A stretch of DNA of 33,467 nt from an uncultured Bacilli bacterium. GTDB taxonomy: Bacteria; Bacillota_I; Bacilli_A; RF39; UBA660. The stretch is from positions 1-33,467 of the forward strand of contig CALVOO010000005.1 of the NCBI GenBank assembly GCA_944350305.1, given 5' to 3'. The position numbers were made by a program, and so were the translations under genes. Positions 15,531 to 33,467 of the stretch are shown here, in pieces. How positions within the stretch are numbered: the first letter of the stretch is position 1; every line of letters begins with the position of its first letter. The notes beneath the pieces were generated by a model that ran no database searches, was not told where the DNA came from, and saw only the letters and a list, made by a program, of their open reading frames with translations.

Positions 15531-15543
15531 TTTAAATCACTCC

Positions 15544-16776: not shown

Positions 16777-16812
16777 AATTTTCCTACCTTTATTCTCTAC
16801 TGATTATTATAA

Positions 16813-16843
16813 CAAAAAAAATTATACTTTAAAAGTATAATTT
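16813..16843 (-). terminator. Terminator of the pilin-like pair
   Basis: The 12-base-pair stem AAATTATACTTT/AAAGTATAATTT with a one-base loop is followed by eight T residues on the minus strand. It overlaps the stop of the second pilin-like gene. Confidence 0.85.
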
Positions 16844-17613: not shown

Positions 17614-17637
17614 TTTTTTTCCTCCATAACTGCTTTC

Positions 17638-17666
17638 ATTATATCAAATCAACCTTTTATTATCAA
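17638..17666 (-). promoter_or_regulatory. Promoter of the pilin-like pair
   Basis: TTGATA and TATAAT on the minus strand with a 17-base spacer, 24 bases before the first pilin-like start. Confidence 0.85.
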
Positions 17667-17684
17667 TTATCTTTAAAAACTTAG

Positions 17685-17722
17685 TAATTAAAACAGTAAA
17701 TCTTTTATAATTTACTGTTTAG
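17685..17722 (-). terminator. Terminator of rpsP-khpA
   Basis: An 11-base-pair stem (17691-17701 with 17710-17720) built on AAACAGTAAAT/ATTTACTGTTT, followed on the minus strand by TTTTAATTA. It overlaps the khpA stop. Confidence 0.75.
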
Positions 17723-17961
17723 AAAGAATCTATATTTATTTTAACATTTTTTATGCCTAGTAAATAACCTTTTGTTTGTATAAGCGTTTTTATTGAATTA
17801 GCTACTTTTCCATTTTTGCCTATTATAGAAGGCATATCATTTTCACTTACTAAAATTTCAATAATTAGTCCTTCTTCAGTCTCAAAATCTTTCACTTTTG
17901 ACATCTCGGGATCACTTATTAAATTTTTTATTAACATTTCTGTATATTCTGTTATAGACAT
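17719..17961 (-). CDS. khpA: KH-domain RNA-binding protein KhpA
   Basis: An 80-residue single KH domain protein (YlqC in Bacillus). The RNA-gripping GxxG loop is GKNG at residues 48-51 within MPSIIGKNGKVANSIK. KhpA usually pairs with KhpB/Jag to bind many small RNAs and mRNAs and affects cell length. It starts one base after the rpsP stop, the conserved arrangement in Bacillota. The genes that normally follow in Bacillus (ylqD, rimM, trmD, rplS) are absent: a terminator comes straight after. Confidence 0.95.
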   Translation of the reverse strand: MSITEYTEMLIKNLISDPEMSKVKDFETEEGLIIEILVSENDMPSIIGKNGKVANSIKTLIQTKGYLLGIKNVKINIDSF

Positions 17962-18228
17962 TTATTTTCTTTTATTATTATGAAATTTTTCCATAATACC
18001 AACTTGACTAAAAATACTTCTTACAGTGTCAGTTGGCATAGCTCCTTTGCTTAGCCACTTTAAAGCTAATTCTTCATTTATATTGTATTTATTAGATTCT
18101 TTTAATGGTTGATAAGTTCCTATTAATTCTATAAAACTACCATCTCTTCTATCTTTGGAATCAGCTGCAACGATTCTGTAATTAGCATTTTTCTTTGATC
18201 CTGTTCTTTTTAATCTTAGTTTTACCAT
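17962..18228 (-). CDS. rpsP: Small ribosomal subunit protein bS16
   Basis: An 88-residue S16, needed for assembly of the 30S body. The conserved start [20 protein letters not shown] and the [13 protein letters not shown] and GAMPTDTV segments are all present. AAAGGAG lies 7 bases upstream. It opens a two-gene operon with khpA behind a TTGACA promoter. Confidence 0.98.
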
Positions 18229-18254
18229 AGTTTACTCCTTTCTCAATATAGATT

Positions 18255-18283
18255 ATATTACCTTATTTTATTAGAAATGTCAA
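18255..18283 (-). promoter_or_regulatory. Promoter of rpsP-khpA
   Basis: Minus-strand TTGACA and TAATAT spaced by 17 bases; an alternative TATAAT lies three bases further on. Confidence 0.75.
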
Positions 18284-18305
18284 CTTATTTTGGTTGACTA
18301 ATATT

Positions 18306-20318: not shown

Positions 20319-20339
20319 ATCTTTTCCTTTCATTTATAA

Positions 20340-20368
20340 AAAATAACTTAGTTTAATAAAAATGTCAA
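20340..20368 (-). promoter_or_regulatory. Promoter of topA
   Basis: Minus-strand TTGACA and TATTTT spaced by 17 bases, 21 bases before the chosen start. Confidence 0.7.
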
Positions 20369-20423
20369 GTAATATATTTATATATATGCTTTTTTAAAAA
20401 TTAATTACACTATAAATTTAATT

Positions 20424-20454
20424 ATAAAAAAGAACCTTTATTTTAAAAGATTCT
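20424..20454 (-). terminator. Terminator of tkt
   Basis: Minus-strand stem AGAATC/GGTTCT (one G-T pair) with a loop containing the tkt stop codon, followed by a TTTTTT run. Confidence 0.65.
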
Positions 20455-22399
20455 CTATTTTCATAAGCAATGTATCTTTATCAAATCCCAAATGTTTAAG
20501 TACGTCTCCTTTTTTTCCGCTTATACCAAATCTATCTATATTTAATATGTATTTGTTATTGTATACAAATTCATACCATGTTTTATCATTACTTGCTTCA
20601 AGCACTATGATTTTGCTACCTATAGGCATAAGTTCTTCTCTATACTCTTTAGTCTGTTCATTAAATACTTCAACTGAAGGCATACTTATTACTCTTAAAT
20701 TAATGTTTTTTTTGCTAAGTTCATCACTTATTTCAATTGCCGTATGTACATCCTCTCCAGTTGAAATCAATATGCCACTAAGTCTTCCTTTTTCTTTTTT
20801 TATAATATATGCACCTTTTTCAGTAAAAGTAATATCGCTACTTTTGATTTCAGGTAATTTTTCTTTTGTTACTATTATACAAGCAGGAACGCGATTGTTA
20901 ATTATATAATCCCAACTACCAACTAGTTCTTTAACATCTGCAGGTCTAAATACTTTTAAATTTGGTATATTTCTTAACATACCAAGTTGTTCGATGGGTT
21001 GGTGCGTTGGTCCGTCTTCACCTATGCCAACTGAGTCATGAGTAAATATATAAGTGACCGGTAGTTTCATCATTGCACTTAGTCTAATACCAGGTTTCAT
21101 ATAATCACTAAAAGAAAGAAAAGTACTACCAAAAGGTCTAAGCCCGCACAATGCAAGGCCATTTAAAACTGAGCTCATGACATTTTCTCTTACACCAAAA
21201 TGAATATTTCTTCCTTTGCTATCATTGATTTTAAAGTCATTTCCGTGTGTTAGATATGCCTTTGTAGAACTAGCAACATCTGCACTTCCTCCAATTATCA
21301 AAGGAGTTAAATTTCCAATTAAATTTAAAAGCTTTCCATTTGTTATTCTAAGTTCTTCAGTTTGTCCTTCTTCAAAATTAACTTTTATAGTTTTTAAATT
21401 TATTCTAAATTCTCCAGTTTCAATATAATTAAGTAATTTTTTATTCACACTTTCTTTTGATACAAATGTATTGTATCTGCTAACCCATTCATTGTATAAG
21501 GGTATGCATCTTTTTTCTATTTCCTCTCTAAATGTTGTTGCAGCTTCTTTAGAAACATAAAACGGTATTAGGTTAACATTCATTTTATTTTTTACAAGTT
21601 CTATGTCATCATCGCTTAATGGTTTTCCATGAACTTCACTACTTCCAGCTTTGGATGTTCCTATTCCTAATACTGTTTTAATTTTTATGATACTAGGTTT
21701 ATCTATTACTTGTTTTGCTTTGCTAATTGCATCATTAATTAAAGTAAAGTTTTCTCCGTCATTTATTTCTTGAATATGCCAGCCACAAGCTTCAAATCTT
21801 TTTAAAACATCTTCGTTAAATACTCCGGTAGTTGGACCATCTAATGATACATTGTTAGAATCATATAATACAATGAGCTTGCCTAATTTTAAACTTCCGG
21901 CTAAGCTTGCTGCTTCATGACTGATTCCTTCCATTAGGTCACCATCGCCGACTAAGACATATGTAAAATAATCATAAATTTCTTTACCAATGCAATTTCT
22001 TAAATATTCTTCAGCAATTGCAATACCAACACTAGTTGCAAAACCTTCGCCTAAAGGACCGGTAGTAGTTTCTATACCTATTTTGATATTAAGTTCAGGA
22101 TGGCCAGTAATTTTGCTACCAACTTGTCTAAAAGTTCTTAGTTCTTCCAAACTAATAGGATAGCCAGCAAAAAATAATGTGCTATATAAAAGCGCAGATC
22201 CATGCCCAGCACTTAATATGAATCTATCTCTATTTAACCAGTTTCCATCCTCTGGATTAAAATTTAAGTGATAACGAAATAGTGTATATATAGTTGGAGC
22301 AGCTCCTAAACAGATTCCCGGATGGCCACTTTGCGCTTCGTTAATCATATCAATGCTTAAACTTCTAATACCATTTATTATCTTCCTATCAATATCCAT
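20438..22399 (-). CDS. tkt: Transketolase
   Basis: A 653-residue full-length transketolase, the thiamine diphosphate enzyme that moves two-carbon units in the non-oxidative pentose phosphate pathway. Substrate and cofactor residues are visible: H26 in SGHPG, H66 in SAGHGS, the GDGDLMEG diphosphate motif at 151-158, and HFGVRENVMS in the pyrimidine-binding domain. The C-terminal transketolase domain is complete. AGGAG precedes the ATG by 8 bases and a TTGTAC-18-TATAAT promoter lies just upstream. In Bacillus tkt lies in the same lexA-yneA neighbourhood, so the position is conserved. Confidence 0.97.
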   Translation of the reverse strand: MDIDRKIINGIRSLSIDMINEAQSGHPGICLGAAPTIYTLFRYHLNFNPEDGNWLNRDRFILSAGHGSALLYSTLFFAGYPISLEELRTFRQVGSKITGHPELNIKIGIETTTGPLGEGFATSVGIAIAEEYLRNCIGKEIYDYFTYVLVGDGDLMEGISHEAASLAGSLKLGKLIVLYDSNNVSLDGPTTGVFNEDVLKRFEACGWHIQEINDGENFTLINDAISKAKQVIDKPSIIKIKTVLGIGTSKAGSSEVHGKPLSDDDIELVKNKMNVNLIPFYVSKEAATTFREEIEKRCIPLYNEWVSRYNTFVSKESVNKKLLNYIETGEFRINLKTIKVNFEEGQTEELRITNGKLLNLIGNLTPLIIGGSADVASSTKAYLTHGNDFKINDSKGRNIHFGVRENVMSSVLNGLALCGLRPFGSTFLSFSDYMKPGIRLSAMMKLPVTYIFTHDSVGIGEDGPTHQPIEQLGMLRNIPNLKVFRPADVKELVGSWDYIINNRVPACIIVTKEKLPEIKSSDITFTEKGAYIIKKEKGRLSGILISTGEDVHTAIEISDELSKKNINLRVISMPSVEVFNEQTKEYREELMPIGSKIIVLEASNDKTWYEFVYNNKYILNIDRFGISGKKGDVLKHLGFDKDTLLMKIENLLK

Positions 22400-22424
22400 A
22401 ATACAACTCCTATTTTATACGTAA

Positions 22425-22454
22425 ATTATACCACGGAATAATTTATAAGTACAA
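22425..22454 (-). promoter_or_regulatory. Promoter of tkt
   Basis: Minus-strand TTGTAC and TATAAT separated by 18 bases, placed between the microprotein stop and tkt, so tkt can be expressed without the SOS promoter. Confidence 0.75.
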
Positions 22455-22467
22455 GTTTTATAATTAT

Positions 22468-22620
22468 TTATGCGTAATAAGTTTCGTTAATTTTTTCTGA
22501 GTCTATTGCGTTAGCTTGTGAATTTAAGTCTTCTACTCTTAAAGTAATAAATAAGGATATTAATGCAATAAAAATATAAAACAAAATAACTCCTTTAAAA
22601 TTATCTAAAATCTTTTCCAT
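22468..22620 (-). CDS. 50-residue single-pass membrane microprotein divergent from lexA
   Basis: A 50-residue reading frame with ATG at 22620, AAGGG 6 bases upstream and a consensus promoter. A short charged N-terminus (MEKILDNFKG) leads into one hydrophobic helix (about residues 11-27), then RVEDLNSQANAIDSEKIN and the terminal ETYYA. It sits where Bacillus has yneA, the SOS-induced division inhibitor: divergent from lexA and upstream of tkt. YneA has one membrane segment plus a LysM domain; this protein has the membrane segment but no room for LysM. Small SOS membrane inhibitors such as SidA of Caulobacter are of similar size. Function is inferred from position and promoter only; I do not recognise a family. 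Confidence 0.75.
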   Translation of the reverse strand: MEKILDNFKGVILFYIFIALISLFITLRVEDLNSQANAIDSEKINETYYA

Positions 22621-22643
22621 TTATATCCCTTCTTTCTGTATAT

Positions 22644-22672
22644 ATTCTATGGCGTATATTTGTTCGTGTCAA
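22644..22672 (-). promoter_or_regulatory. Promoter of the microprotein with candidate LexA site
   Basis: Minus-strand TTGACA and TAGAAT with a 17-base spacer. Inside the spacer, plus-strand 22653-22666 reads CGTATATTTGTTCG, which matches the Gram-positive SOS box CGAACATATGTTCG at 11 of 14 positions. Binding there would block the promoter. Confidence 0.65.
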
Positions 22673-22691
22673 TAAAAACACAAAAAAATGT

Positions 22692-22720
22692 TTGACAACT
22701 TTACGTTCGTGTGTTAACAT
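22692..22720 (+). promoter_or_regulatory. Promoter of lexA with candidate LexA half-site
   Basis: TTGACA and TAACAT with a 17-base spacer. The spacer holds ACGTTCGTGTG; the 14 bases at 22696-22709 match the SOS box well only in the right half (GTTCG). The octamer GTTCGTGT occurs here and in the divergent promoter in the same orientation. The transcript would start close to the AGGAGG ribosome site. Confidence 0.65.
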
Positions 22721-22742
22721 TTTAATAGGAGGTAAAAGTTAA

Positions 22743-23360
22743 ATGGAAACTTTAACTAAGAAACAAGAAGAAACTTTAAAAGCTATTAAAAAATTTATTG
22801 CAAAAAATGGATATAGTCCAAGTGTTAGAGAAGTGTGTGATATGATGAATTTAAGTAGTACAGCTACTGTTTTTGTCCATATGAGGCATTTAATGAATAA
22901 AGGTTATATTTCTCAAACAAATAATAAATTTAGAACACTTGAAGTATTAGTGCCAAATGAATATTTGGAAACAAACGAGGATGTTGTTTCGGTGCCATTG
23001 TTAGGTAAAATTACTGCAGGAAATCCTATTGAAGCAATAGAGTTTCCAGATGAATATATGCAAATTCCAACATTTATGATACCTAAAAATGAAGAAGTAT
23101 TTACTTTAAAAGTGGATGGTATGAGCATGAAAAACATTGGAATCTATGATGGAGATATAGTAGTAGTAAAAAGGACTAGCAGTGCAAAAAATGGTGATAG
23201 AGTTGTTGCATTAGATGAAAATGGATATACAACTTTAAAAACTTTTTATAAAGAAAATGGATATTTTAGATTGCAACCAGAAAACGAGACAATGAGCCCA
23301 ATAATATTGGACAAAGTTAATATATTAGGAATCGCCATTGGTTTATATAGAAAATTATAA
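22743..23360 (+). CDS. lexA: SOS repressor LexA
   Basis: A 205-residue LexA. The N-terminal winged helix (about residues 1-65) includes the SPSVREVCDMMNLSS recognition region. The self-cleavage bond is A92-G93 in LLGKITAGN, and the serine-lysine dyad is S128 (GMSMK) with K166. RecA filaments trigger self-cleavage and release of SOS genes. AGGAGG lies 10 bases before the ATG. Its own promoter and the divergent one carry candidate operators, consistent with autoregulation. Confidence 0.97.
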   Translation: METLTKKQEETLKAIKKFIAKNGYSPSVREVCDMMNLSSTATVFVHMRHLMNKGYISQTNNKFRTLEVLVPNEYLETNEDVVSVPLLGKITAGNPIEAIEFPDEYMQIPTFMIPKNEEVFTLKVDGMSMKNIGIYDGDIVVVKRTSSAKNGDRVVALDENGYTTLKTFYKENGYFRLQPENETMSPIILDKVNILGIAIGLYRKL

Positions 23361-23388
23361 AAAAAATGATTTTTAAAATCATTTTTTT
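23361..23388. terminator. Bidirectional terminator between lexA and the rhomboid gene
   Basis: The 13-base-pair stem AAAAAATGATTTT/AAAATCATTTTTT serves both converging genes, with T runs on either strand. Confidence 0.8.
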
Positions 23389-24520
23389 ATTTTATTATTA
23401 TCATATATATCAATGAAGCTAATAAAATGATTGTCATAATTAGTCCGTGGATATTATGATTTTTTTTATTAAAACCTTTTATTCCTAACATGTATGAAAT
23501 TAAAAATCCACCTATCAAGCCTCCTACGTGGGCTGCAACATCAATGCCCGGAACGATTAATCCTACTAGTAGATTTATTAAAATTAATGGAATAATCTGT
23601 CCTTTTAAATAACTGTCTAGTGTAGCTCGATAATTAAATCCAAAATATAAAAGTGAACCAAATAATCCAAAAATAGCACCACTTGCACCAATCGATGCTG
23701 AAGTAGTTAAAACCGCAGAAAATAGTGAACCAATTATTCCGCTCATTAAATATATAATCAAAAATTTTAAAGTACCGTAATACCTCTCAATCTCAGGGCC
23801 AATTATGTATAAAGCATACATATTAAAAAATAGATGAACTGAATTTCCATGCAAGAATATTGATGTAATAAGTCTATATATCTCTCCATTTTGGATATTT
23901 ATATAATAATTTGCAAATAAATTTATAAAATCGTTATAAATTGCTGGACTTAACATAAGAATAAAAATCAAAATGTTTAAAAATATTAATATATATGTAA
24001 TTATTGGAATGCCATTTTTAAATAATTTTGACATTTTTTTATCGTCCTTAACTGTTTTATCATTTAATTCCTCTGTCATCTTAAACATATCTATTACATT
24101 TGATTTTTTGCTATTAATCTTATCTTTTAAATCAGGAAAATATTCATTAACAAATTTATTTTTTTTAATATCACTTATTTTTTTAACTTCAACACTTTCA
24201 ATATCCTCTGTGTTACCTATAGTGACATTTTCTCCGCAATCAATTAAAATGTTTAAAACTTTCATTTTAAATATATAAGTTTTTTTCTTAATGTTTTTTC
24301 TAATAGCATCAACTTTTCTTAAATCATTATTTAATTGTTCATTATTATGTATATAATTAATATTAAGTCTAATAATTTTTATGTCATTGTTCATATTTTC
24401 TAACCAAATCTCATTTTTCAAACCGTTTACAACTATAGGTTTGTAATCTTTTTCAGTAACAAAATAATGAACAAGTTTAACAACAATATCATCTTTTTTA
24501 TTAATTATTATGTTTGCCAT
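23387..24520 (-). CDS. Rhomboid family intramembrane serine protease with N-terminal soluble domain
   Basis: A 377-residue rhomboid. An N-terminal cytoplasmic domain of about 160 residues precedes six or seven membrane helices. The catalytic dyad is S280 in GASGAIFG and H331 in AHVGG; the HGNSVHLFFNM segment after the first helix is also typical. The layout resembles Bacillus YqgP (GluP), though no TPR repeats follow the membrane core. The start at 24520 is supported by AAGGAG 5 bases upstream; ten further in-frame codons lie upstream without a ribosome site. It is divergent from the TspO gene. Confidence 0.92.
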   Translation of the reverse strand: MANIIINKKDDIVVKLVHYFVTEKDYKPIVVNGLKNEIWLENMNNDIKIIRLNINYIHNNEQLNNDLRKVDAIRKNIKKKTYIFKMKVLNILIDCGENVTIGNTEDIESVEVKKISDIKKNKFVNEYFPDLKDKINSKKSNVIDMFKMTEELNDKTVKDDKKMSKLFKNGIPIITYILIFLNILIFILMLSPAIYNDFINLFANYYINIQNGEIYRLITSIFLHGNSVHLFFNMYALYIIGPEIERYYGTLKFLIIYLMSGIIGSLFSAVLTTSASIGASGAIFGLFGSLLYFGFNYRATLDSYLKGQIIPLILINLLVGLIVPGIDVAAHVGGLIGGFLISYMLGIKGFNKKNHNIHGLIMTIILLASLIYMIIIK

Positions 24521-24579
24521 ATTAACTCCTTCTGTAATTATATTATACACTTTTTCATATATTTTATAAAGAGGTGAAT

Positions 24580-25035
24580 ATGAAAAAAATATTTTACTTT
24601 ATATTTATATTATTATTGTGGTTTCTAGGCAGTTTAATTTTTAAATATGATCCGGTTTATTATGAATTGTTAAACACTCCTTCTTATGTAATAAATCCTA
24701 CTTTAAATAGTATTGTATGGATTATATTATATTTTACTATTACTACATCTATTATATTAGTTAAAAATAAAAGAAATATAATAGGTAATAATGATTATTT
24801 TTTTGTATTAATAATTAACTATCTAGCAAATATGATTTTCCCACTAATGTTTTATAATTTAAAAAGCCCTTTTTTAGGTTTTGTAATAAACACAATAGTA
24901 TTAATAAGTACATTTTATTTACTAGTTGAAAGTAAAAAAATTGATAAAAAAAGTTTTTATGTTTTAATACCTTATTTTATATATACAATATATTTATTTA
25001 TAGTAAGTTTAAGTATATGGCTTATGAATTTTTAA
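24580..25035 (+). CDS. TspO/MBR family membrane protein
   Basis: A 151-residue five-helix protein of the tryptophan-rich sensory protein family, which binds porphyrins and similar ligands in the membrane. Family landmarks are GSLIF with a following YY...TPSYV segment, SIVWIILYF in helix two, NYLANMIFPLMFY in helix three and the VLIPYFIYTIYLF helix near the end. Tryptophans are fewer than usual. The ATG at 24580 is chosen because GAGG lies 5 bases upstream; the in-frame GTG two codons earlier falls in that site. Its end overlaps the end of the convergent rluD gene by 14 bases and no terminator is visible between them. Confidence 0.82.
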   Translation: MKKIFYFIFILLLWFLGSLIFKYDPVYYELLNTPSYVINPTLNSIVWIILYFTITTSIILVKNKRNIIGNNDYFFVLIINYLANMIFPLMFYNLKSPFLGFVINTIVLISTFYLLVESKKIDKKSFYVLIPYFIYTIYLFIVSLSIWLMNF

Positions 25036-25909
25036 AAGAGTTTAAAATTTCCAAAAATTTCTTTTCCAAAGGACAAGTAAATTCCATAAACTCTTTTTTT
25101 ATTGGGTGAATAAAACCAATGTATCCAGCATGCAACATTTGCCCATATTTGTCAAAATTTTTTCCATACAAAGGATCATTTATAATTGGATGATTTATAT
25201 ATGCCATGTGAACTCTTATTTGATGAGTTCTCCCGGTTTCAAGTACACATTCAACCAAAGTTGAATTTTTAAATCTTTCCAATACTTTGAAATTAGTTAT
25301 AGCTTTCTTGCCATTTGCACATATCCCCATTTTGATTCTATCGTTTAATTTTCTTCCAATAGGCGCATCAATTTTGCCGGAATTTTCATTTATCACGCCT
25401 TCTACTAAAGCAATATATTTTCTTTTGATTTTTTTATTTTTAAAATCTTCACTTAAAATTCGATGAGCTTTATTAGTTTTAGATATTAGTAACAATCCGC
25501 TAGTATCTTTATCAATTCTGTGAACAATACCAGGTCTAAATTCACCGTTAATATCAGATAATTTACCTTTTGTATAGTGCATTAAAGCATTAACTAACGT
25601 TCCATTTTTGTTTCCAGCTCCTGGATGAACTACCATACCACTAGGCTTGTTAACAACTATTATATCATCATCCTCATAATAAATATCAAGTTTAATATTT
25701 TCGGGAATTATGTTTGGTGTATCATTTTTTAATTTAACAAGTATTATATCTCCTATCTTAGGTTTATACCCGCTTTTTACAATTTTATCATTAACTAATA
25801 TGTTACCTGAACTGATATTTTTTGTAATGTTATTTCTGCTTTCGCCAAGAATTTTAGATAAATATATATCAATTCTATTGTTTATTTTCTCAGTTATTTC
25901 TATTTTCAT
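25022..25909 (-). CDS. rluD: RluD-type 23S rRNA pseudouridine synthase
   Basis: A 295-residue RluA/RluD family enzyme. An N-terminal S4 RNA-binding domain (about residues 1-70) leads into the catalytic domain with HRIDKDTSG at 130-138, where D133 is the nucleophile, and GRTHQIRVHM further on. In Bacillus the homologue YlyB follows lspA, as here. The start at 25909 has GGAGG 6 bases upstream and overlaps the lspA end by 20 bases; earlier in-frame codons are inferior. Which uridines it modifies cannot be told from sequence. Confidence 0.93.
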   Translation of the reverse strand: MKIEITEKINNRIDIYLSKILGESRNNITKNISSGNILVNDKIVKSGYKPKIGDIILVKLKNDTPNIIPENIKLDIYYEDDDIIVVNKPSGMVVHPGAGNKNGTLVNALMHYTKGKLSDINGEFRPGIVHRIDKDTSGLLLISKTNKAHRILSEDFKNKKIKRKYIALVEGVINENSGKIDAPIGRKLNDRIKMGICANGKKAITNFKVLERFKNSTLVECVLETGRTHQIRVHMAYINHPIINDPLYGKNFDKYGQMLHAGYIGFIHPIKKEFMEFTCPLEKKFLEILNSFKNS

Positions 25910-26360
25910 TTTTATCCTCCATAATAAGTCCAATAGCAAACAAGATTGTCCCGAATACTATAAAAGAGTCTCCAATGTTAAAAATAGCAAAATCATAATT
26001 CCAAAAATCAAAATCTAAAAAATCAATAACGTGACCATAGACAAGTCTGTCAAATAAATTGCCAAGAAGCCCACCTATAACAAGGCTTATGGATGTTGTA
26101 ATTAAATTATTATGTATTCCTTTTTTTATCTCATAAATTAAATAAGCAAAAATTATAATTGAAATCAAAACAATAAAAACTATTTTACCATCCAATATGC
26201 CAAATGCTGCTCCATGGTTATTGACGTATGTAATATTAAAAAAATTTTTTATAATTGGTATACTCTCTCCTAATGATAAGTTGTCGATGACAAGTATTTT
26301 ACTAAGCCTATCTAATATAAAAATGATTGTTATAATTAAAATAATTTTTATAGTTTTCAT
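25890..26360 (-). CDS. lspA: Lipoprotein signal peptidase (signal peptidase II)
   Basis: A 156-residue four-helix aspartic protease that removes signal peptides from lipidated prolipoproteins. The catalytic pair is D104 in GNLFDR and D131 in FNIGDSFI; the NNHGAAFGIL segment is also diagnostic. The ATG at 26360 has AAGGTG 6 bases upstream and gives the normal family length; the frame extends 15 codons further but without a good site. It is coupled to rluD downstream. Confidence 0.95.
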   Translation of the reverse strand: MKTIKIILIITIIFILDRLSKILVIDNLSLGESIPIIKNFFNITYVNNHGAAFGILDGKIVFIVLISIIIFAYLIYEIKKGIHNNLITTSISLVIGGLLGNLFDRLVYGHVIDFLDFDFWNYDFAIFNIGDSFIVFGTILFAIGLIMEDKNENRNN

Positions 26361-26401
26361 TTCGTTCACCTTCTTCATTTTATAAAAAAAAAAAACTTTA
26401 T

Positions 26402-26632
26402 TCAAGTATTAATATTTTCAATAAGAATAACGTCGCTACCCATTTTTTTTATTTGTTCGAATTTAATTAAAACTTCATTGGATTCTGTAAAAAATAGTTT
26501 GTTTTTGTTTTTTTCTAAAACTAAGTCAGTTATTTTACCACTTTCATCAATAATGACGTCGATAATTCTACCTACAAATGAACCATCAATTAAATTAATT
26601 ATATTTTTTCTTTGTAACTCAGATAATCTCAT
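26402..26632 (-). CDS. ylmC: PRC-barrel protein of the YlmC/YmxH sporulation family
   Basis: A 76-residue single PRC-barrel protein beginning MRLSELQRKNIINLIDGSFVGRI, matching the YlmC/YmxH family that travels with sporulation genes in spore-forming Bacillota. Its biochemical role is unknown. It sits 22 bases after sigG, as ylmC lies near sigG in Bacillus. The ribosome site (AAAGTG) is weak. Confidence 0.88.
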   Translation of the reverse strand: MRLSELQRKNIINLIDGSFVGRIIDVIIDESGKITDLVLEKNKNKLFFTESNEVLIKFEQIKKMGSDVILIENINT

Positions 26633-26654
26633 AGTACACTTTATGAAAAAATAA

Positions 26655-27428
26655 TTATTTTATTAATCTTTTCATTGTTTTTATAGCATTTTTTTCAAGT
26701 CTAGATACTTGTGCTTGACTAATACCTATTTCTTCAGCAATTTCCATTTGAGTTTTTCCAACGATAAATCTGTTTATTAATATATCTCTTTCACGTTCTT
26801 TAATTTTCATAAGTGCTTTTCTCATACTTATAAGGTCATCTAATTCTTTATTTTCTTTTTTATCTTCAATTTGATCAAGTAAATAAATTGTGTCTCCTCC
26901 ATCATTATATATTGGTTCAAAAATACTCATCGGCTCCTTTAAACATAAAATTGCATTTGCAACTTCATATTCGCTAACTTCAAAGTGTTTTGCAATTTCA
27001 CTAGTAGTTGGTTCCGAATTATTATTATATGTATAATCCTCTTTAAATTTTAATATTTTATATGCTAAATCTTTAATGCTTCTACTAATTCTAATTGGGT
27101 TATTATCTCTAATGTATCTTTTAATTTCTCCCTCAATCATTAATACTGCATAAGTGCTAAATCTCACATTATGCGAAAGATCAAAATTGTCGATTGCTTT
27201 TATTAATCCAATGCATCCTATCTGGAATAGATCATCCATATTATCGGTTTTATTATGATATTTTTTTAATATTGACAAAACTAATTTTAAATTTCCATTA
27301 ACTAATGTGTCTTTAGCAGTTTTATCGCCTTTTTTAAGCTTTCTAAATAATTCAATCATTTCTTTATGCTTTAATACCGTTAAATTACTAGTCTTTATAC
27401 CTGTTATTTCTACCTTGTTTTTTGCCAT
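26655..27428 (-). CDS. sigG: RNA polymerase sporulation sigma factor SigG
   Basis: A 257-residue sigma factor close to Bacillus SigG, which runs late forespore transcription. The N-terminus NKVEITGIKTSNLTVLK, region 2 (DDLFQIGCIGLIKAIDNFDLSH), the SIFEPIYNDGGD block and the region 4 helix-turn-helix (TQMEIAEEIGISQAQVSRLEK) are characteristic. AGGTGA lies 6 bases before the ATG. It follows sigE after a terminator and has its own candidate SigF-type promoter, so it would be switched on in the forespore. It is the best single sign that this organism makes endospores. Confidence 0.96.
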   Translation of the reverse strand: MAKNKVEITGIKTSNLTVLKHKEMIELFRKLKKGDKTAKDTLVNGNLKLVLSILKKYHNKTDNMDDLFQIGCIGLIKAIDNFDLSHNVRFSTYAVLMIEGEIKRYIRDNNPIRISRSIKDLAYKILKFKEDYTYNNNSEPTTSEIAKHFEVSEYEVANAILCLKEPMSIFEPIYNDGGDTIYLLDQIEDKKENKELDDLISMRKALMKIKERERDILINRFIVGKTQMEIAEEIGISQAQVSRLEKNAIKTMKRLIK

Positions 27429-27446
27429 CTTATATCACCTATTATA

Positions 27447-27475
27447 TATTTGGCGATATTCGTACTTTTTTATAC
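27447..27475 (-). promoter_or_regulatory. Candidate SigF-dependent promoter of sigG
   Basis: On the minus strand GTATA is followed after 15 bases by CGCCAAATA. The SigF pattern is GYATA, about 15 bases, GGNNANA; the -35 matches fully and the -10 partly. It lies directly after the sigE terminator and 18 bases before sigG, where Bacillus has its SigF promoter. Confidence 0.5.
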
Positions 27476-27501
27476 AAAAAAAGTATAAAATAATTATACT
27501 T
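27475..27501 (-). terminator. Terminator of spoIIGA-sigE
   Basis: Minus-strand stem AAGTATAA/TTATACTT with a five-base loop and seven T residues, overlapping the sigE stop codon. Confidence 0.8.
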
Positions 27502-28174
27502 TCATTAAATTTTGTAATTTTTTAATTGTTTTTTTCTCTATTCTTGATATATAAGACTGACTTATTCCTAACATGTCTGCTACCTCTTTTTGCGTAAATT
27601 CTTCACTGCCCATTAACCCGTATCGCATTTTAATAATTTCTTTATCTCTTTTATTTAATTTTTCAATTTCTTTTAATAAAATTAGTTTATCTATTTTTTC
27701 TTCGTAAGATTTAGGAATAAGTTCAGGATCTGTTCCAAAAACATCTTCTAAATGCAATTCATTTCCTTCTCCGTCAAAATTAATTGAATCTTCAAAGCTT
27801 ATCTCAGTATTTCTTTTTTTATTTTTTCTTAAAAACATTAATATCTCATTTTCTATACATCTTGAAGCATATGTAGCAAGCTTTATATTTTTGTCAGGCT
27901 TATAAGTTTTAATTCCTTTTATTAGTCCAATTGATCCTATGCTTACTAAATCTTCTAATGTCTCGTTAGTATTGTCATATTTTTTTGCTAAAAATACTAC
28001 AAGCCTTAAGTTATGTTCAATTAGCTTATTTCTTGCATTTAAATCTCCATTATTACTTTTTATCACTAATTCTAATTCCGTATCTTTATCTAAAGGTGGT
28101 GGCAATATATCTGTACTGCCTACATAATATATCTCTTTTTTAAATAATTTTATTAATAAATCTAGTATCTTCAT
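27494..28174 (-). CDS. sigE: RNA polymerase sporulation sigma factor pro-SigE
   Basis: A 226-residue sigma factor made as an inactive precursor. The basic, hydrophobic pro-region (about residues 1-17) precedes EIYYVGSTDILPPPL, matching the cleavage zone of Bacillus pro-SigE. Region 2 (EDLVSIGSIGLIKGI) and region 4 (TQKEVADMLGISQSYISRIEKK) are intact. SigE directs early mother-cell transcription after cleavage by SpoIIGA, whose gene lies immediately upstream and overlaps as ATGA, with GGAGG inside the spoIIGA end. Confidence 0.97.
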   Translation of the reverse strand: MKILDLLIKLFKKEIYYVGSTDILPPPLDKDTELELVIKSNNGDLNARNKLIEHNLRLVVFLAKKYDNTNETLEDLVSIGSIGLIKGIKTYKPDKNIKLATYASRCIENEILMFLRKNKKRNTEISFEDSINFDGEGNELHLEDVFGTDPELIPKSYEEKIDKLILLKEIEKLNKRDKEIIKMRYGLMGSEEFTQKEVADMLGISQSYISRIEKKTIKKLQNLMKV

Positions 28175-28965
28175 ATTTTTTCCTCCATTAATATATTTAA
28201 TAAACAGTCTATCCCATCTATTTTTATTTTATTTTCACTTATACCAATAACCACATTGTTTTTTAAACCAATTCCATCAATATATACATATTTTGGCACT
28301 ATACATTTAATAATTCCGTCATAATTTAATGTCTTGTACGGTACTAAAATATAATTGTTTGCTCTCATGTAATCACTGATTTCTTTATTATGAGCTATAA
28401 TAACGTATTTACCACCATAAGGTTCAGTCAATGTATTTCCACTATCAACGTAACCATTTAACTCAACAATTTTATTGTTATTTAAATAAACATTTACTTT
28501 TTTTCTATTTGTATAAAATAATCTCAATTCTTTAATTTGCTTAGTATAAATATATAATATAACTGGACTAAATATTCCAACAACTAAAAAATTAAGTTTA
28601 AAATTATTATTGATAAAAGTAATTCCAACTTTTTCGTAACCTATTTGTATATTTAAAAAATATAAAAAACCGCCCAATATTATGCTAGTAGTATAAAAAT
28701 ATAAAAGATTATTAAAAAAATATTTTATATCTTTATATCCAAAAGCAATTAATATTAATATACTACTTAATATTAACTTATATAAAAATAATAGAAAGTT
28801 ATTCATATTAATAAATAAGATTAAAATTGATAAACTACCAATAAAAGTAGAGAATAATATTCTTTTCATTTTAGCATTTCTTCTAAGTATTATAGAAATT
28901 GTTACAAGTATTAAAAAGTCTATTATAAAATTTAAAAGTAAAATTAAATCAATATATACTTTCAT
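28171..28965 (-). CDS. spoIIGA: Sporulation sigma-E processing peptidase SpoIIGA
   Basis: A 264-residue membrane protease. Five hydrophobic helices fill roughly residues 1-145, followed by a soluble aspartic-protease-like domain with D174 in YVDSGNTLTEP, the catalytic motif. It cleaves pro-SigE in the mother cell on a signal from the forespore. I start at the ATG at 28965, preceded by GGTG; a TTG four codons earlier is less likely. It forms a two-gene operon with sigE, as in other spore formers. Confidence 0.94.
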   Translation of the reverse strand: MKVYIDLILLLNFIIDFLILVTISIILRRNAKMKRILFSTFIGSLSILILFINMNNFLLFLYKLILSSILILIAFGYKDIKYFFNNLLYFYTTSIILGGFLYFLNIQIGYEKVGITFINNNFKLNFLVVGIFSPVILYIYTKQIKELRLFYTNRKKVNVYLNNNKIVELNGYVDSGNTLTEPYGGKYVIIAHNKEISDYMRANNYILVPYKTLNYDGIIKCIVPKYVYIDGIGLKNNVVIGISENKIKIDGIDCLLNILMEEKI

Positions 28966-28982
28966 ATTGGTCACCAATTAAA

Positions 28983-29018
28983 ATTATATAAAAACGACAA
29001 GTATTAATTTGTCGTTTA
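28983..29018 (-). promoter_or_regulatory. spoIIGA promoter region overlapping a hairpin
   Basis: A minus-strand TATAAT (28988-28983) has no matching -35 at 17 bases. Upstream lies the inverted repeat AAACGACAA/TTGTCGTTT (28992-29000 and 29009-29017), followed by T residues, which terminates the 29016-29774 gene. Its arms resemble Spo0A boxes (TTTGTCGAA): one arm reads TTTGTCGTT. In Bacillus spoIIG is a Spo0A-activated promoter with a poor -35. The terminator reading is solid; the Spo0A reading is speculative. Confidence 0.45.
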
Positions 29019-29774
29019 ATGTTCTACGTAATCCCATAATTTATATTGATGTGCTTGTCCTGAGTCAATCAAAGATTCAATTCTTTCTTTTTCTCTAAGT
29101 TCCATTTCTTCTTTATTTCTTATTAATTCTGCAATATATCTCTTGGCACGATAATTTCGTGAACCGTTTTCTTTTTTTATAAAACTATTAAAAAAATCAT
29201 ATGCAGGTTTAATTAAAATTTCAGGTGAATGTGTATTATTATCTACTCTATTTTTATATAATAATAACTTTTCTAAGTGATAAAATACTTCCATATTTTT
29301 ACATTTATTTATGTAGTTATCACTAAATAACTCATATACAAAATCAGAATCAAGGCATCTATCAATAATTGCGTTCCTTAAATATGAATTTTCTAAATAT
29401 TTTTTATCTTTTTCATAAAAAACTGGTAAATTTGTTATACTACCATTTGATCTTAATGCAATATTAATTGGCCTAGTTTCTAATTTTTTATCTCTACAAA
29501 ATTCTATATAGTTTTTATAATTTGTTGTAGATTTATCTATTTCATCCAAAAAATCTGGTTCAAAAAGTTTTAAAAACTTTCTATAGATTACTACAAATCT
29601 TAATTTTTGTTCTTTTAATTCATAATCAGAATAAAAATATTTTTCTTTTTTGCTTTTATTTAAAGTCTTTAACGTTTCTATAAAATGAATTGCTGAAGAA
29701 TAATCTTTAAAAGCTTCTACTTCTGTACCATAACTTTGAACTATTGTATATCTCTTTATTTTTTTTGATTTCAT
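29016..29774 (-). CDS. Uncharacterised soluble protein, last gene of a three-gene cluster
   Basis: A 252-residue protein I do not recognise. It has no signal peptide and no membrane segment, and looks mixed alpha/beta at first (KRYTIVQSYGTEVEAFKDYSSAI) with a long, highly charged helix near the end (about residues 215-242). Several YxxxF and KYLEN-type segments suggest helical packing. AAGGAG lies 8 bases before the ATG. A hairpin separates it from the cysteine-rich membrane protein gene upstream, 50 bases away, so it may be read through or expressed separately. A terminator follows. No function is proposed. Confidence 0.7.
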   Translation of the reverse strand: MKSKKIKRYTIVQSYGTEVEAFKDYSSAIHFIETLKTLNKSKKEKYFYSDYELKEQKLRFVVIYRKFLKLFEPDFLDEIDKSTTNYKNYIEFCRDKKLETRPINIALRSNGSITNLPVFYEKDKKYLENSYLRNAIIDRCLDSDFVYELFSDNYINKCKNMEVFYHLEKLLLYKNRVDNNTHSPEILIKPAYDFFNSFIKKENGSRNYRAKRYIAELIRNKEEMELREKERIESLIDSGQAHQYKLWDYVEH

Positions 29775-29795
29775 TTTTAAATCTCCTTATAATTA

Positions 29796-29819
29796 AAGCA
29801 ACAGAAATTTCTGTTGCTT
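29796..29819 (-). terminator. Perfect 24-base palindrome after the cysteine-rich protein gene
   Basis: AAGCAACAGAAA/TTTCTGTTGCTT is a perfect inverted repeat with no spacer, just after the stop at 29825. The following minus-strand sequence (TAATTATAAGG) has little T run, so termination may be partial and the downstream gene could be read through. Confidence 0.5.
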
Positions 29820-29824
29820 ATTAT

Positions 29825-31096
29825 TTATATTGCCACACTTCTTGTTTTTCCTGTTCTTTCCCAGCCTTCTAATGTTTCAGAAGTACTCCATTTATATTTA
29901 TATTTTGTAATCTGAGATATATTAGTAACAGGTTTTTTAAAAATATTAGACAAACATAATTTCAAATTAGAATTATAAGTATATCCATTAGGACATGTAT
30001 TTGCTGTTTCTATTTTATCCGTACCATAACACTTTAAATTTTCTCCTGATCCAATTTGCGTAACTGTTTGCTCTGGACAGTAATATTCAGTTGCTGTTTC
30101 AGTTTTATAACATATTTTGGAATTTGTTGATTCATAATCATTACATTCTTGGTATGGCACTTGAACAGGAACTTTCTCAGTGTATGTAACAGTATATGGT
30201 ACACTTACATTTGAACAAGTTTTTTTCGGAACAGTCTTGTAACATGTATTACATGATGTAGTATATTTTCCATTAACAAATTTTGTTGTACATTCACAAG
30301 CATAAGATTCTTTTTCATATTTAGTTGTACACTCTTGCTCAGTTTTATATTCAATACGTTCAAAGGTTTCTGTCTTGTATTCAGTTCTATATTTTGTCGT
30401 ACATATAGTTTCAGTATCAATTTCACTACAATCGTAAGAAACTTCTTTGTTATAGTCTTTTTTTAATGTCTCTAATAATTTGTCTATTGTTTCATAACTA
30501 GTTTCTGCTTTAGTAGTTGCATAACACATTCCATTAATCAAAGTACTATATAAACTACTATCACATTTGGTTGATGTTTCATTAACTGTATAAGCTTGCC
30601 TAAATTCATATTGTAGTTGTTTAGCAATTTCTTCATTTTCATCTTTTAGTTCTGTTTCGCATTTATTACCTTCACAGTAATCATAACATCCTAATGTTTC
30701 AATTATATATGAACTTTCAGTATCGCAAACTAAATTCACTTTTAATGAGTATTCTTCTTCACTTTCCTTAGTAACTTGTACGTATGATTCGTTGGTGTCA
30801 CAAGGATTACCATCTTTATCAACAAAAGGTATAATTAAATTTTTATTAATCATATCTTGTAAAGTCATTTCTGCTTTATCCCCTATGTTTTTTGGTAATC
30901 TTTCATTAGTATAATAACTCTTGGCTGCGTCTTGCATATAAGATATGTTTTCTCTAAATACATTACTATAAAATGCTGTCATATTAGGAACTTTTGGAAA
31001 TAGCCACATTAATAAAAGTATGAAAATCGCAAAAAATATAACTTTTATAATTAAATCTTTCCAATTGATTCCAGGATTTTTTTCACTACTATACAT
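29825..31096 (-). CDS. Pilin-like membrane protein with cysteine-rich repeat region
   Basis: A 423-residue protein of unknown function. One membrane helix (about residues 16-34) follows a short polar N-terminus. Residues 45-145 repeat the ectodomain pattern of the two pilin-like proteins at 16842-17613: an AAKSYYTNE helix, TLQDMINKNLI, a cysteine, SYVQV and a later cysteine. Beyond this come about 270 residues rich in cysteine, threonine, tyrosine and lysine, with CTTKY/F repeated three times and runs of TEYKTE type, ending in WSTSETLEGWERTG. The many cysteines suggest an extracellular, disulfide-linked stalk or adhesin. GGGGGA precedes the ATG. It follows the upstream membrane protein by 18 bases. 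Confidence 0.78.
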   Translation of the reverse strand: MYSSEKNPGINWKDLIIKVIFFAIFILLLMWLFPKVPNMTAFYSNVFRENISYMQDAAKSYYTNERLPKNIGDKAEMTLQDMINKNLIIPFVDKDGNPCDTNESYVQVTKESEEEYSLKVNLVCDTESSYIIETLGCYDYCEGNKCETELKDENEEIAKQLQYEFRQAYTVNETSTKCDSSLYSTLINGMCYATTKAETSYETIDKLLETLKKDYNKEVSYDCSEIDTETICTTKYRTEYKTETFERIEYKTEQECTTKYEKESYACECTTKFVNGKYTTSCNTCYKTVPKKTCSNVSVPYTVTYTEKVPVQVPYQECNDYESTNSKICYKTETATEYYCPEQTVTQIGSGENLKCYGTDKIETANTCPNGYTYNSNLKLCLSNIFKKPVTNISQITKYKYKWSTSETLEGWERTGKTRSVAI

Positions 31097-31114
31097 TTTA
31101 ATTTCCCCCTCTCA

Positions 31115-32575
31115 TTAATTATTTTTATATACGTATTGAGATTTATATTCTAATTCTTTGTTTAAGTCGTAATAAAATTCTTCACTAATAATTTGGTAAC
31201 CATCTGGTGCATTGACTGCCAACGTCGCATCATTACTTATTCCTAAAATTATGGCATTAAATATATCTTCTACTGGTATTTTTTTAGTTTCACCTGAATA
31301 GTAATCTATGCAGACATCCGTACATACTGTTTTGCTGTTTGCATTTTCATATTCCATTACATATGAACTATACCTCTCAGTTGAAATACCTAATGCTAAT
31401 AATCTTTGGTCTGGCTCAAAATTGTAAGGATTTGTTCCACTATACATTCCTTGTAATACCCAATCGTTATACATTTCTTCTCCTAGTTTTTGAGTATTTA
31501 ATTCAAAGCTTTCCCAATTTTTTGTGTTTCTAGCTTCGGCAATAGAATTATATAAAACGTCATATTTTTCTGCAAACTTTTGCAATTTTATATCGTCTGT
31601 TACAATATCAGCGTAATTTACATTATATATCTTGTCAAGCTGTGGAGATGATGGGTAGTTTGCAAATAAATCACATCTTGCTTCAATATATTTATTTATA
31701 GCATTTGGTGAATATTGTTGCTCATTATTAATTAAAGGTAATTCTCCATTAGAAATTCTTATTATGTTTACTAATGTTTCTAATTCTTCGCCATCAAAAT
31801 CATGTTCTATTTCACTTAAATATTCCATGTCATCCAAAATTTCTTCGGATTTTGCATATATACCTTCAACATCATCAGATTGTAAAATTTCGCTACTTTC
31901 TACAGCAGGCGTTAAATCGATAGAAGGTGTGCTCTCGATGCCATTTGTTATATAATTAGTCGTATTTGGAGTAACTGTAATTGTTGGTGTTTCAATTATT
32001 TCTTTTTTGGAATTTCCACATTGTTTAATAGTCGAAACAACCAATACTATTAATGATGCTCCAAAAACCGTATATAAAATTCTTCTTATTTTGTGATTTT
32101 TCTTTTTATTTTTATTATCTGTATTATTTTTTGGACTATTTTCTTTATTTTCGTCCTTTTCTGTTACATTGTCGTTATTATTTTTGTTTTTCTCATTATT
32201 TTCATCTTTATCCTTAGATTCTATATAGTAAGCTTCTAATTCTTCTTCAGCTTCAACCAAAATTTCTATTTTTTCATCATATAATTCTTTCAAAGTTTTT
32301 TTAGTTTGAGGTTTTTTTTCAGCTGAAATTAATTGATCTAATTCTTCAACTTTCTTACATAAGTCTTCGTATGATACGTAATCCTGATTTATAGATTTTA
32401 TCTCTGCATCTATATCTTCAATCATATCATTTAATTCAAGGATTCTTGATCTACCTTTGCGACTTAAATATCCTTCGTTTCCCTTTAATCTTTTTAATTC
32501 TTTCGCAAGTTCTTTCTTTTCCTTTTTTAGATTTTCTAGTCTTTCGCTTATAGCTTTTAATAATTCACTTTTCAT
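31115..32575 (-). CDS. Membrane protein with cytoplasmic coiled coil and extracellular domain
   Basis: A 486-residue protein I do not recognise. Residues 1-120 are a charged coiled coil (lysine, glutamate, leucine heptads), 120-160 a linker rich in asparagine, lysine and aspartate, 166-183 a membrane helix, and the rest an extracellular region with a threonine/proline-rich stem (about 190-225) and a folded, acidic, tyrosine-rich domain. Topology is inferred from the lysine- and arginine-rich flank before the helix. The ATG at 32575 has a GGGGGA site 6 bases upstream and a consensus promoter further up. It opens the cluster with the cysteine-rich pilin-like protein; the two may form an envelope complex linked to an intracellular scaffold. 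Confidence 0.75.
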   Translation of the reverse strand: MKSELLKAISERLENLKKEKKELAKELKRLKGNEGYLSRKGRSRILELNDMIEDIDAEIKSINQDYVSYEDLCKKVEELDQLISAEKKPQTKKTLKELYDEKIEILVEAEEELEAYYIESKDKDENNEKNKNNNDNVTEKDENKENSPKNNTDNKNKKKNHKIRRILYTVFGASLIVLVVSTIKQCGNSKKEIIETPTITVTPNTTNYITNGIESTPSIDLTPAVESSEILQSDDVEGIYAKSEEILDDMEYLSEIEHDFDGEELETLVNIIRISNGELPLINNEQQYSPNAINKYIEARCDLFANYPSSPQLDKIYNVNYADIVTDDIKLQKFAEKYDVLYNSIAEARNTKNWESFELNTQKLGEEMYNDWVLQGMYSGTNPYNFEPDQRLLALGISTERYSSYVMEYENANSKTVCTDVCIDYYSGETKKIPVEDIFNAIILGISNDATLAVNAPDGYQIISEEFYYDLNKELEYKSQYVYKNN

Positions 32576-32605
32576 AACCATTCCCCCTTTTGTGAATATG
32601 CACAT

Positions 32606-32634
32606 ATTATACTACACTTTACACTTTTTGTCAA
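32606..32634 (-). promoter_or_regulatory. Consensus promoter of the three-gene envelope cluster
   Basis: Minus-strand TTGACA and TATAAT with a 17-base spacer, a perfect sigma-A match and the strongest promoter in the window. Confidence 0.9.
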
Positions 32635-32658
32635 ATTTTATCGTTTAATTTAGAAAAA

Positions 32659-33258
32659 CTATTCGTATTCACTAACTGGTTTAAAACTTTTCCTGTGTTC
32701 GTTTATTATACCATATTTTTTTATTGATTCAATGTGTTTCTTTGTTCCATAGCCTTTGTTATTAGCAAAATCGTACATTGGATATTTTTTATCCAGTTCA
32801 TACATCATATTGTCTCTTGTTACTTTTGCAATTATGCTAGCTGCTGCTATACTTTGGCTTTTAGCATCACCTTTTATAATAGATAGTGAAGGTATATCTA
32901 GTTCTAGTTTCATAGCATCAATTAATAAATAATCTGGTTTAAAGCTTAAATTTTTAACTGCCAGAATCATTGCTTCCTTTGTTGCTTCGTAAATATTTAT
33001 TTCATCAATCCTTTTATTTGAGATTATGCCTATACCAATTGAGATTGCATTTTCACAAATTATTTTGTATAACTCGTTTCTTTTTTTTTCACTTAGCTTT
33101 TTAGAATCATTGATTCTTTCATCAAAAAAATTTTTTGGTAATATCACTGCAGCTGCTACAACAGGTCCTGCTAATGGCCCACGCCCTACTTCATCTATGC
33201 CTGCAATTAATTTTATTCCTTCATTATATAAATCATTTTCATACTTTAACATTTCCAT
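32659..33258 (-). CDS. rnhB: Ribonuclease HII
   Basis: A 199-residue RNase HII, which cuts RNA in RNA-DNA hybrids and removes single ribonucleotides from DNA. The acidic site starts with D22-E23 in [13 protein letters not shown], with a further aspartate in LLIDAM and the [17 protein letters not shown] segment of the family. I start at the ATG at 33258. A TTG six codons upstream is unlikely because it overlaps the promoter -10. There is no clear ribosome site, and the predicted transcript begins only a few bases before the ATG, so translation may be nearly leaderless; a second ATG two codons on is possible. Confidence 0.95.
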
Positions 33259-33267
33259 AGTAATTTT

Positions 33268-33297
33268 ATTATACAATAGTAAATTGAAATTTTACAA
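33268..33297 (-). promoter_or_regulatory. Promoter of rnhB giving a near-leaderless transcript
   Basis: Minus-strand TTGTAA and TATAAT separated by 18 bases. The -10 ends 9 bases before the rnhB ATG, leaving a leader of about 0-4 bases. Confidence 0.6.
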
Positions 33298-33327
33298 GTT
33301 TAATTAAATGTTGTTATCATTTAAATT

Positions 33328-33467
33328 TTTGCTCGTTGATAAAATAATATAATATAATAAATCATTTTTAAATATATTTAAAATGATTTATTCAGACTGT
33401 TGACAAAGTAAAATTTTGTTAATAGTCTTTTTAGTTTAGATAATTTGTTATATAATAAATTTGTAAG
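33328..33467 (+). other. Right-edge intergenic region with two hairpins, possible leader or small RNA
   Basis: No gene is visible here. On the plus strand a weak promoter (TTGCTC-18-TATAAT, -10 at 33353-33358) precedes a 12-base-pair hairpin (33356-33367 with 33381-33392). A second, 14-base-pair stem follows (33394-33407 with 33415-33428, two G-T pairs) ending in TTTTTAG. Another TATAAT lies at 33450-33455. This could be an attenuated leader for a plus-strand gene beyond the window, a small RNA, or the terminator of something unseen. Confidence 0.35.

Follow-up and report, generated by a model that had tools for sequence, protein, structure and literature searches.

A conserved gene pair encoding a pilin-domain protein and a membrane partner, a candidate surface display module in an uncultured Bacilli lineage

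Here we describe three neighboring genes, P3, P2, and P1, on a contig (C5; GenBank CALVOO010000005.1) from an uncultured Bacilli bacterium. The window is the whole stretch of DNA that was analyzed, 33,467 nucleotides long, and all features given below lie on its minus strand. The source genome (G000) consists of 803 kb in 45 contigs with a completeness of 89.7%; its relatives are numbered G001, G002, and so on, and loci carry L numbers. The gene order is RNase HII, a promoter, P3, P2, P1, spoIIGA, sigE, and sigG. P3 (32575-31115) encodes a bitopic helical protein of 486 aa with a predicted transmembrane (TM) segment, counted from the ATG at 32575; a longer start at 32605 would give 496 aa. P2 (31096-29825) follows after 18 bp and encodes a cysteine-rich pilin-domain protein of 423 aa with 21 cysteines, and P1 (29774-29016) encodes a soluble protein of 252 aa with 3 cysteines. 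The original prediction had placed a cluster of three envelope genes at 29016-32575 and had recognized none of the three families. The three open reading frames (ORFs) are there, and the families remain without a useful database match: none of the proteins has a Pfam match near the curated cut-off, no NCBIfam model matches P1 or P2, and the NCBIfam matches of P3 all fall far below the cut-off. Judging from profiles and gene neighborhoods, P3 and P2 are conserved together as a pair, and P1 stands outside it. We propose, with about as much confidence as doubt, that the pair is a static, pilin-derived surface display module of two proteins that probably serves in contact or adhesion.

P2 and its pilin-like domain

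A profile built from the first 160 residues of P2 was matched in 350 of 386 genomes and 140 of 150 genera of the bacterial family, which is probably UBA660 of the order RF39; in 19 of the 350 the best expectation value (E) is weaker than 1e-15, and these matches may be ordinary prepilins. When the single P2 protein was used as the query 46 of 98 genomes were matched, all within the family. No relative of P2 was found in viral contigs.

P2 has a short leader, predicted to be cytoplasmic, one membrane helix (residues 12-32; 31001-31063), a pilin-like globular domain that would lie just outside the membrane (residues 37-137; 30686-30988), and a long variable stalk rich in Cys, Thr, and Tyr that ends in the motif W..GW..TG.R (29840-30655), in which the columns W403, G411, T415, and G416 are invariant or nearly so. 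The membrane helix is taken from the predicted model, and alignment places G9 and D14 at the pilin positions -1 and +5. The model has a mean predicted local distance difference test score (pLDDT) of 75.8 with helices at residues 12-32 and 40-61 and strands at 105-110, 116-123, and 128-135. Residues 41-130 reach a pLDDT of 88-97 per block, and parts of the stalk are poorly modeled. The lollipop fold of a pilin, a long N-terminal helix and an antiparallel beta-sheet, is present in this predicted model.

The original prediction had called P2 pilin-like, and this was borne out by the profile matches to prepilins of relatives and by modest structural matches to pseudopilins. In a small set of frames, chosen because P2 had already matched these loci, the P2 profile matches the globular domains of prepilins in G009 (L213, L214, and L215) and G019 (L216) with E values between 3e-13 and 1e-15. 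These prepilins begin with KGFT[ML][VI]EL, a leader that the window P2 does not have; in G009 some GFTMVEL prepilins have a domain of the P2 type, and two of these are encoded in frames of 930 and 984 aa. When residues 37-137 were compared with known structures by VIA-align, the best rows were 2ret_E (Z 6.5, rmsd 3.2, 78 aligned residues) and 5bw0_B (Z 6.2, rmsd 3.2, 79 aligned residues), with 6qvf_A (Z 5.2), 9a1f_R (Z 5.2), and 6qvi_B (Z 5.0) further down. Pilins and pseudopilins make up five of the seven top rows at Z 5.0-6.5, all below 8 and so below the level of a sure match, and the unrelated protein 5iw9_A ties at Z 6.2. Because the Z scores stay below 8, the sequence evidence outweighs the structural evidence for the pilin resemblance.

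Other comparisons were set aside. When the P2 profile was aligned by hhalign with canonical pilins of the genus, the probabilities were 26% (E 7e-4) and 63% (E 7e-5) for the sequence including the membrane helix and 0.3% and 2.3% for the sequence lacking it; these matches were discounted as resting on the helix because the probability collapses when it is removed. The better pilin evidence for P2 comes from the G009 and G019 prepilins. The P2 profile found nothing better than E 1.7 among PDB sequences. A Foldseek search of PDB with the whole P2 model gave nothing at E<=0.001, and no meaning was given to the list, which was dominated by long-strand pore proteins matched on low-confidence strands.

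The class III signal peptide of type IV pilins consists of a hydrophilic leader that closes with Gly or Ala and 20-25 mainly hydrophobic residues after it, often with Glu at +5. At the equivalent positions, G9 of the window P2 falls at -1 and D14 at +5, and Lys occupies +4 and +9. Positions could be read in 87 of 98 P2 proteins (11 gave no reading): the residue at -1 is Gly in 29, including the window genus, and another residue in 58 (Ala in two of these), and Asp occupies +5 in 69. Leader peptides are reported to end invariably in Gly or Ala (PMC10191384). The P2 proteins of G187 and G290 carry the stretch KKGFGLSS at their start, with NKKGF or NTNKKGF-like leaders. The source genome has eight matches to the N_methyl model, seven of them above the family cut-off, and P2 is not among the eight. 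Its prepilin peptidase and PilC-type platform protein are encoded on contig C6 and P2 on C5; the machine genes of true pili are often scattered as well.

The extra region C-terminal to the pilin module is rich in cysteine. Pfam cEGF matches were found in 6 of 34 homologues and not in the window P2, whose stalk has no Pfam family. Five Cys positions in and near the pilin domain are conserved in 84-96 of 97 P2 rows, and the total number of cysteines is odd in 84 of 98 P2 proteins. The cysteines would form disulfides, and one of them may pair with another protein. VKOR, a candidate oxidant for the stalk and the only thiol oxidase searched for, was found in none of 40 genomes, 25 of which belong to the family of P2.

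Two small one-helix proteins encoded beside ftsA (named by eye; 16842-17613) are weak positives of the P2 profile, with E values of 7e-6 and 9e-5 in a set of two sequences and hhalign probabilities of 80.5% for the larger and 3.0% for the smaller. These are possible pilin-domain paralogues adjoining division genes.

P3 and the pairing of the two genes

P3 and P2 are each predicted to have a single membrane helix and a long stretch outside the membrane. In P3 the TM segment is placed at about residues 167-183 (32027-32077) by a hydropathy window (position 177 in the 496-aa numbering) and by low-confidence helices of the model. The AlphaFold model has a mean pLDDT of 74.2, with cytoplasmic helices at residues 3-134, a poorly modeled linker and TM segment, and a mostly alpha-helical extracytoplasmic domain at residues 236-479 (31139-31870), which is also the region aligned between partner families. 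Foldseek found nothing in PDB at E<=0.001 with the whole P3 model, and the best VIA-align row (2pms_C, Z 8.9) is confined to the helices of the cytoplasmic part, whose arrangement is a common one.

Pairing was examined in 99 P2 loci, a non-random sample drawn from the best matches, and a partner was defined as a protein of at least 280 aa encoded on the same strand within 40 bp of P2. Such a partner adjoins P2 in 67 of the 99 loci, downstream in 52 and upstream in 15; five further loci lie at contig ends. A single-TM neighbor of the partner kind stands beside 52 of 99 P2 genes as compared to 16 of 399 other genes. By profile comparison the 67 partners fall into family A (the window type, 9), family B (23), and family C (18), with 17 in none of the three. 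The three families appear to be remotely related: hhalign gave 91.9% (E 7e-7) for A with C and 97.6% (E 4e-12) for B with C, and reversed controls gave 0.2-0.8%. The part of the partners aligned by the profiles is the outside domain. Iterated profiles started from 15 partners recruited only two non-partners in total. When the family A (P3) profile was run against the 386 genomes, 53 were matched at E<=0.001 and 22 at E<1e-7; among the 22, P2 is directly adjacent in 21 (9 of which had built the profile and 12 of which had not) and the remaining one is at a contig end. Eight loci with matches weaker than E 1e-7 (L173-L180) were inspected and dropped, as none adjoins P2. The partners of the P3-like family thus share an outside domain and a place beside P2, and the neighborhood conservation that the original prediction named as a check is seen for P3 and P2.

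The cytoplasmic part of the partner is swapped between lineages, being a coiled coil in the window, a J-domain in some relatives, and a lipobox-like start in others. NCBIfam DnaJ models match 4 of 21 A-type members and TopJ models match one or two of the 21, with better scores for generic DnaJ. In Pfam, a J-domain was found in two of five A-type members scanned, L098 of G199 (E 2.9e-13) and L164 of G307 (E 6.7e-7); both proteins have an N-terminal DnaJ domain followed by a membrane segment and an outside helical domain. Neither the Pfam nor the NCBIfam models find a J-domain in the window P3. Two of the 67 partners have a lipobox-like start and look like lipoproteins. The original prediction had included an inside scaffold, and this is rejected as the conserved role of P3 because the cytoplasmic part is the one that is swapped.

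Rates of divergence were determined from the identity of each window protein to its counterparts in G001, G002, and G003. The identities are 36, 33, and 43% for P3, 89, 90, and 88% for residues 1-150 of P2, and 38, 42, and 46% for the remainder of P2, the stalk. P1 gives 48, 46, and 44%, and eight other neighbors give 70-97%, among them SpoIIGA with 78, 79, and 74%, SigE with 92, 94, and 92%, and LspA with 70, 71, and 72%. The type of stalk follows the type of partner: the motif WSxW occurs in 0 of 9 P2 proteins with A partners and in 35 of the 43 whose partner belongs to family B or C (Fisher p 6.6e-6, a value that ignores kinship).

Both gene orders occur, and family B holds one clear flip, an upstream member (L067 in G032) among 22 downstream members. 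On a tree of the P2 domain the label "upstream" needs five changes, at least four of them forced; this count includes gains and losses of the partner, and a claim of at least four flips of gene order was therefore dropped. In the loci with a downstream partner (L062-L087 and similar), P2 often follows a sugar-kinase-like gene and an 88-aa Smr-like gene, sometimes with a PPDK-like gene before these (names assigned by eye), and a conserved protein of 140 aa is often encoded after the pair; one such protein gave no match in Pfam.

Promoter, hairpins, and the sporulation neighborhood

P3 is preceded by a sigma-A-type promoter, TTGACA-17-TATAAT, that matches the consensus at 12 of 12 positions (32634-32606). 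The original prediction had called this perfect promoter the strongest in the window; the site is present and is the only exact consensus in the whole window, and "strongest" holds in the sense of closest to consensus. It is also the sole 12/12 site in positions 15000-33467, and the genome has 15 exact sites as compared to none for the backwards control pattern. A looser scan was at chance level (142 sites observed, 136.4 expected), so the case for the promoter rests on the exact match and on conservation. In the four relatives checked the promoter is kept before P3, with 12/12 in G001 and G002 and 11/12 in G003 and G052, and it is accompanied by a common leader around AAAGGGGG. The short 5' leader contains a conserved ribosome-binding site, ATTCACAAAAGGGGGAATGGTT (32576-32597), that is identical or nearly so before P3 in G001, G002, and G003 and matches over a shorter length in G052.

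Two hairpins lie further downstream. The one between P2 and P1 (29796-29819), a putative weak terminator or attenuator, has a z-score of -4.84 with 0 of 200 shuffles equally stable and is conserved in G001-G003 with paired changes. The one 3' of P1 (28987-29017), read from the sequence as terminator-like with a T-rich tail and a fold of -9 kcal/mol, is less exceptional (7 of 200 shuffles equally stable) and is absent from the list of the terminator scan; a similar hairpin occurs in G052. From these two hairpins we infer that the transcription unit does not extend into spoIIGA and that P1 gets a partial share of the transcript.

Beyond this point lie spoIIGA (28171-28965), sigE (28174-27494), and sigG (27428-26655). 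A P1 profile matched 22 of the 386 genomes in 10 genera. With five weak matches left out, 18 P1 loci were compared (G000-G004, G052, G334, G245, G399, G117, G187, G290, G247, G392, G326, G234, G120, and G037), and in 17 of these spoIIGA-sigE comes immediately after P1, with or without P2, the exception being G037. P1 directly follows P2 in six of the 18 (G000-G003, G247, and G399) and is one ORF away in G120; in the remaining loci it is apart from P2 or at a contig end, and the main P2 is on another contig than P1 in G052, G187, G290, G392, and G234. P1 was therefore rejected as a member of the complex that the original prediction had drawn across the envelope, of which the neighbor pair P3-P2 is left. 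Its synteny indicates that P1 is a separate, uncharacterized gene that belongs to the spoIIGA-sigE unit in part of the family; a position after P2 is limited to the window genus and a few other genomes. In addition to having no useful Pfam or NCBIfam match, the P1 profile found nothing at E<=1 among PDB sequences.

Additional variants of this neighborhood were observed. SpoIIGA, SigE, or SigG is encoded near P2 in 6 of the 99 P2 loci (median of eight ORFs per locus), and in G022 SigE- and SpoIIGA-type ORFs are six and seven ORFs from P2. In G392, G326, and G234 (L321, L322, and L323) P1-spoIIGA-sigE is followed by a weak P2 relative of 568 aa (E 5e-7 to 3e-13) and then by a charged protein that looks like a coiled coil and has a hydrophobic segment late in its sequence; the two may be another pair of the P2/P3 kind within the sigE unit. 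G005, a member of the window genus that is 92% complete, has no match to P1, P2, or P3 and gives only weak, short, partial DNA matches to the spoIIGA-sigE-sigG stretch, perhaps reflecting one deletion and a non-sporulating member.

Interpretation and comparison with known systems

We propose that P2, derived from a type IV pilin, remains membrane-bound as a static, unpolymerized display protein, since the prepilin cleavage site has decayed in most P2 proteins, and that its stalk would be exposed at the surface. P3 would be its dedicated membrane partner, with the helical outside domain beside P2 most likely binding or folding the stalk, because the two genes adjoin in either order, the stalk type follows the partner type, and both proteins diverge fast. 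The module would then act in contact or adhesion at the surface. More tentatively, and with more doubt than belief, we suggest that in this family a type IV pilin domain was removed from the filament and became a permanent membrane foot for a fast-changing Cys-rich stalk, held by a partner with an exchangeable inside part (coiled coil, J-domain, or lipid anchor), an arrangement distinct from pili, S-layers, and sortase-anchored proteins.

Several observations weigh against the static module. No adjacent partner is found in 27 of the 99 P2 loci, so P3 may be dispensable or encoded elsewhere. The alignment of families A and B is by itself weak (57.3%), several of the 17 partners outside the three families have no hhalign support, 4 of the 15 profile seeds recruited themselves alone, and hydropathy gave no TM segment in several partners. 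The canonical prepilins of the source genome are weak matches of the P2 profile, with a best E of 2e-5 among five loci and of 1.5e-5 in another search. The neglect of kinship also limits the co-variation of stalk and partner, and fast divergence alone does not show pairing because P1 diverges equally fast. P2 may still be processed because Gly is retained at -1 in a third of the readable proteins, the window genus included, and because of the leaders in G187 and G290.

This last point leads to the main rival, that P2 is a working modular type IV pilin, or a tip or priming subunit, which is cleaved by the prepilin peptidase encoded elsewhere in the genome and assembled into the pilus with the stalk grafted onto it, P3 being an accessory protein found at the base or the tip. 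The source genome encodes the peptidase, the PilC-type protein, and the N_methyl proteins, the window P2 has Gly and Asp at -1 and +5, the P2 proteins of G187 and G290 start with KKGFGLSS, and GFTMVEL prepilins of G009, two of them in long frames, carry a P2-type domain. However, P2 is itself not an N_methyl match, the residue at -1 is not Gly in two thirds of the readable proteins against the Gly/Ala rule of PMC10191384, the two lysines of the window P2 would sit in the filament core, and the peptidase and PilC genes are not on the contig that carries P2. We consider a working pilin rather unlikely. It is improbable that the module is a sporulation-stage envelope complex functionally linked to spoIIGA-sigE-sigG. 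The genes are directly linked to P1-spoIIGA-sigE in the window genus, G120, G247, and G399, the weak P2 relative and coiled-coil/TM protein of G392, G326, and G234 come after sigE, G005 lacks matches to all three proteins and matches the spoIIGA-sigE-sigG stretch only weakly and in part, and G022 has the sporulation-type ORFs at some distance; yet such genes are near P2 in just 6 of 99 loci, the promoter is of the sigma-A type, and a single deletion explains G005. P2 is also present in 91% of the family's genomes, and the family, provided that it is RF39, is predicted to mix sporulating and non-sporulating species (PMC10868615). That the three genes are an incidental cluster of unrelated, fast-evolving membrane genes under one promoter would fit the separable P1, the loci without a partner, and the unplaced partners, but it is disfavored by the adjacency of P2 and partner across genera and in both orders and by the profile homology of most partners, and we regard it as very unlikely.

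If the static display module is correct, it names a surface protein of about nine-tenths of the genomes in a large lineage of uncultured bacteria whose genomes are small and ties it to the evolution of pilins. The window, its relatives, and the rule that P2 goes with P3 and P1 goes with spoIIGA-sigE allow direct tests of the surface role and of a new gene linked to spoIIGA. Literature searches on RF39 type IV pili or pilin, uncleaved pilin-like proteins in monoderms, modular pilins, RF39 genomes, and TopJ turned up no title on the P3-P2 pair.

Several known systems can be compared with the pair. Mycoplasma TopJ, the J-domain protein of the terminal organelle, resembles some A-type partners in the N-terminal J-domain; generic DnaJ models score higher on these partners, and the window P3 lacks the domain. 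The minor pseudopilins of type II secretion (the EpsJ/EpsI and XcpW/XcpV complexes) are the best structural matches of P2 residues 37-137, at Z scores below 8 and tied with the unrelated 5iw9_A. Pseudopilins are processed and polymerized, and P2 differs from them in its long stalk. The prepilins of G009 (L213-L215) and G019 (L216) share the globular domain matched by the P2 profile and, unlike the window P2, carry KGFT[ML][VI]E leaders. PilB and PilC, modular type IV pilins from Streptococcus sanguinis (PMC8179133), resemble P2 in having a pilin module followed by a bulky displayed module in a host with type IV pilus genes. P2 differs from PilB and PilC in that it has no detectable N_methyl motif, its -1 position is not conserved, its extra module is a Cys-rich stalk that has no Pfam family in the window, and a membrane partner is often encoded next to it.

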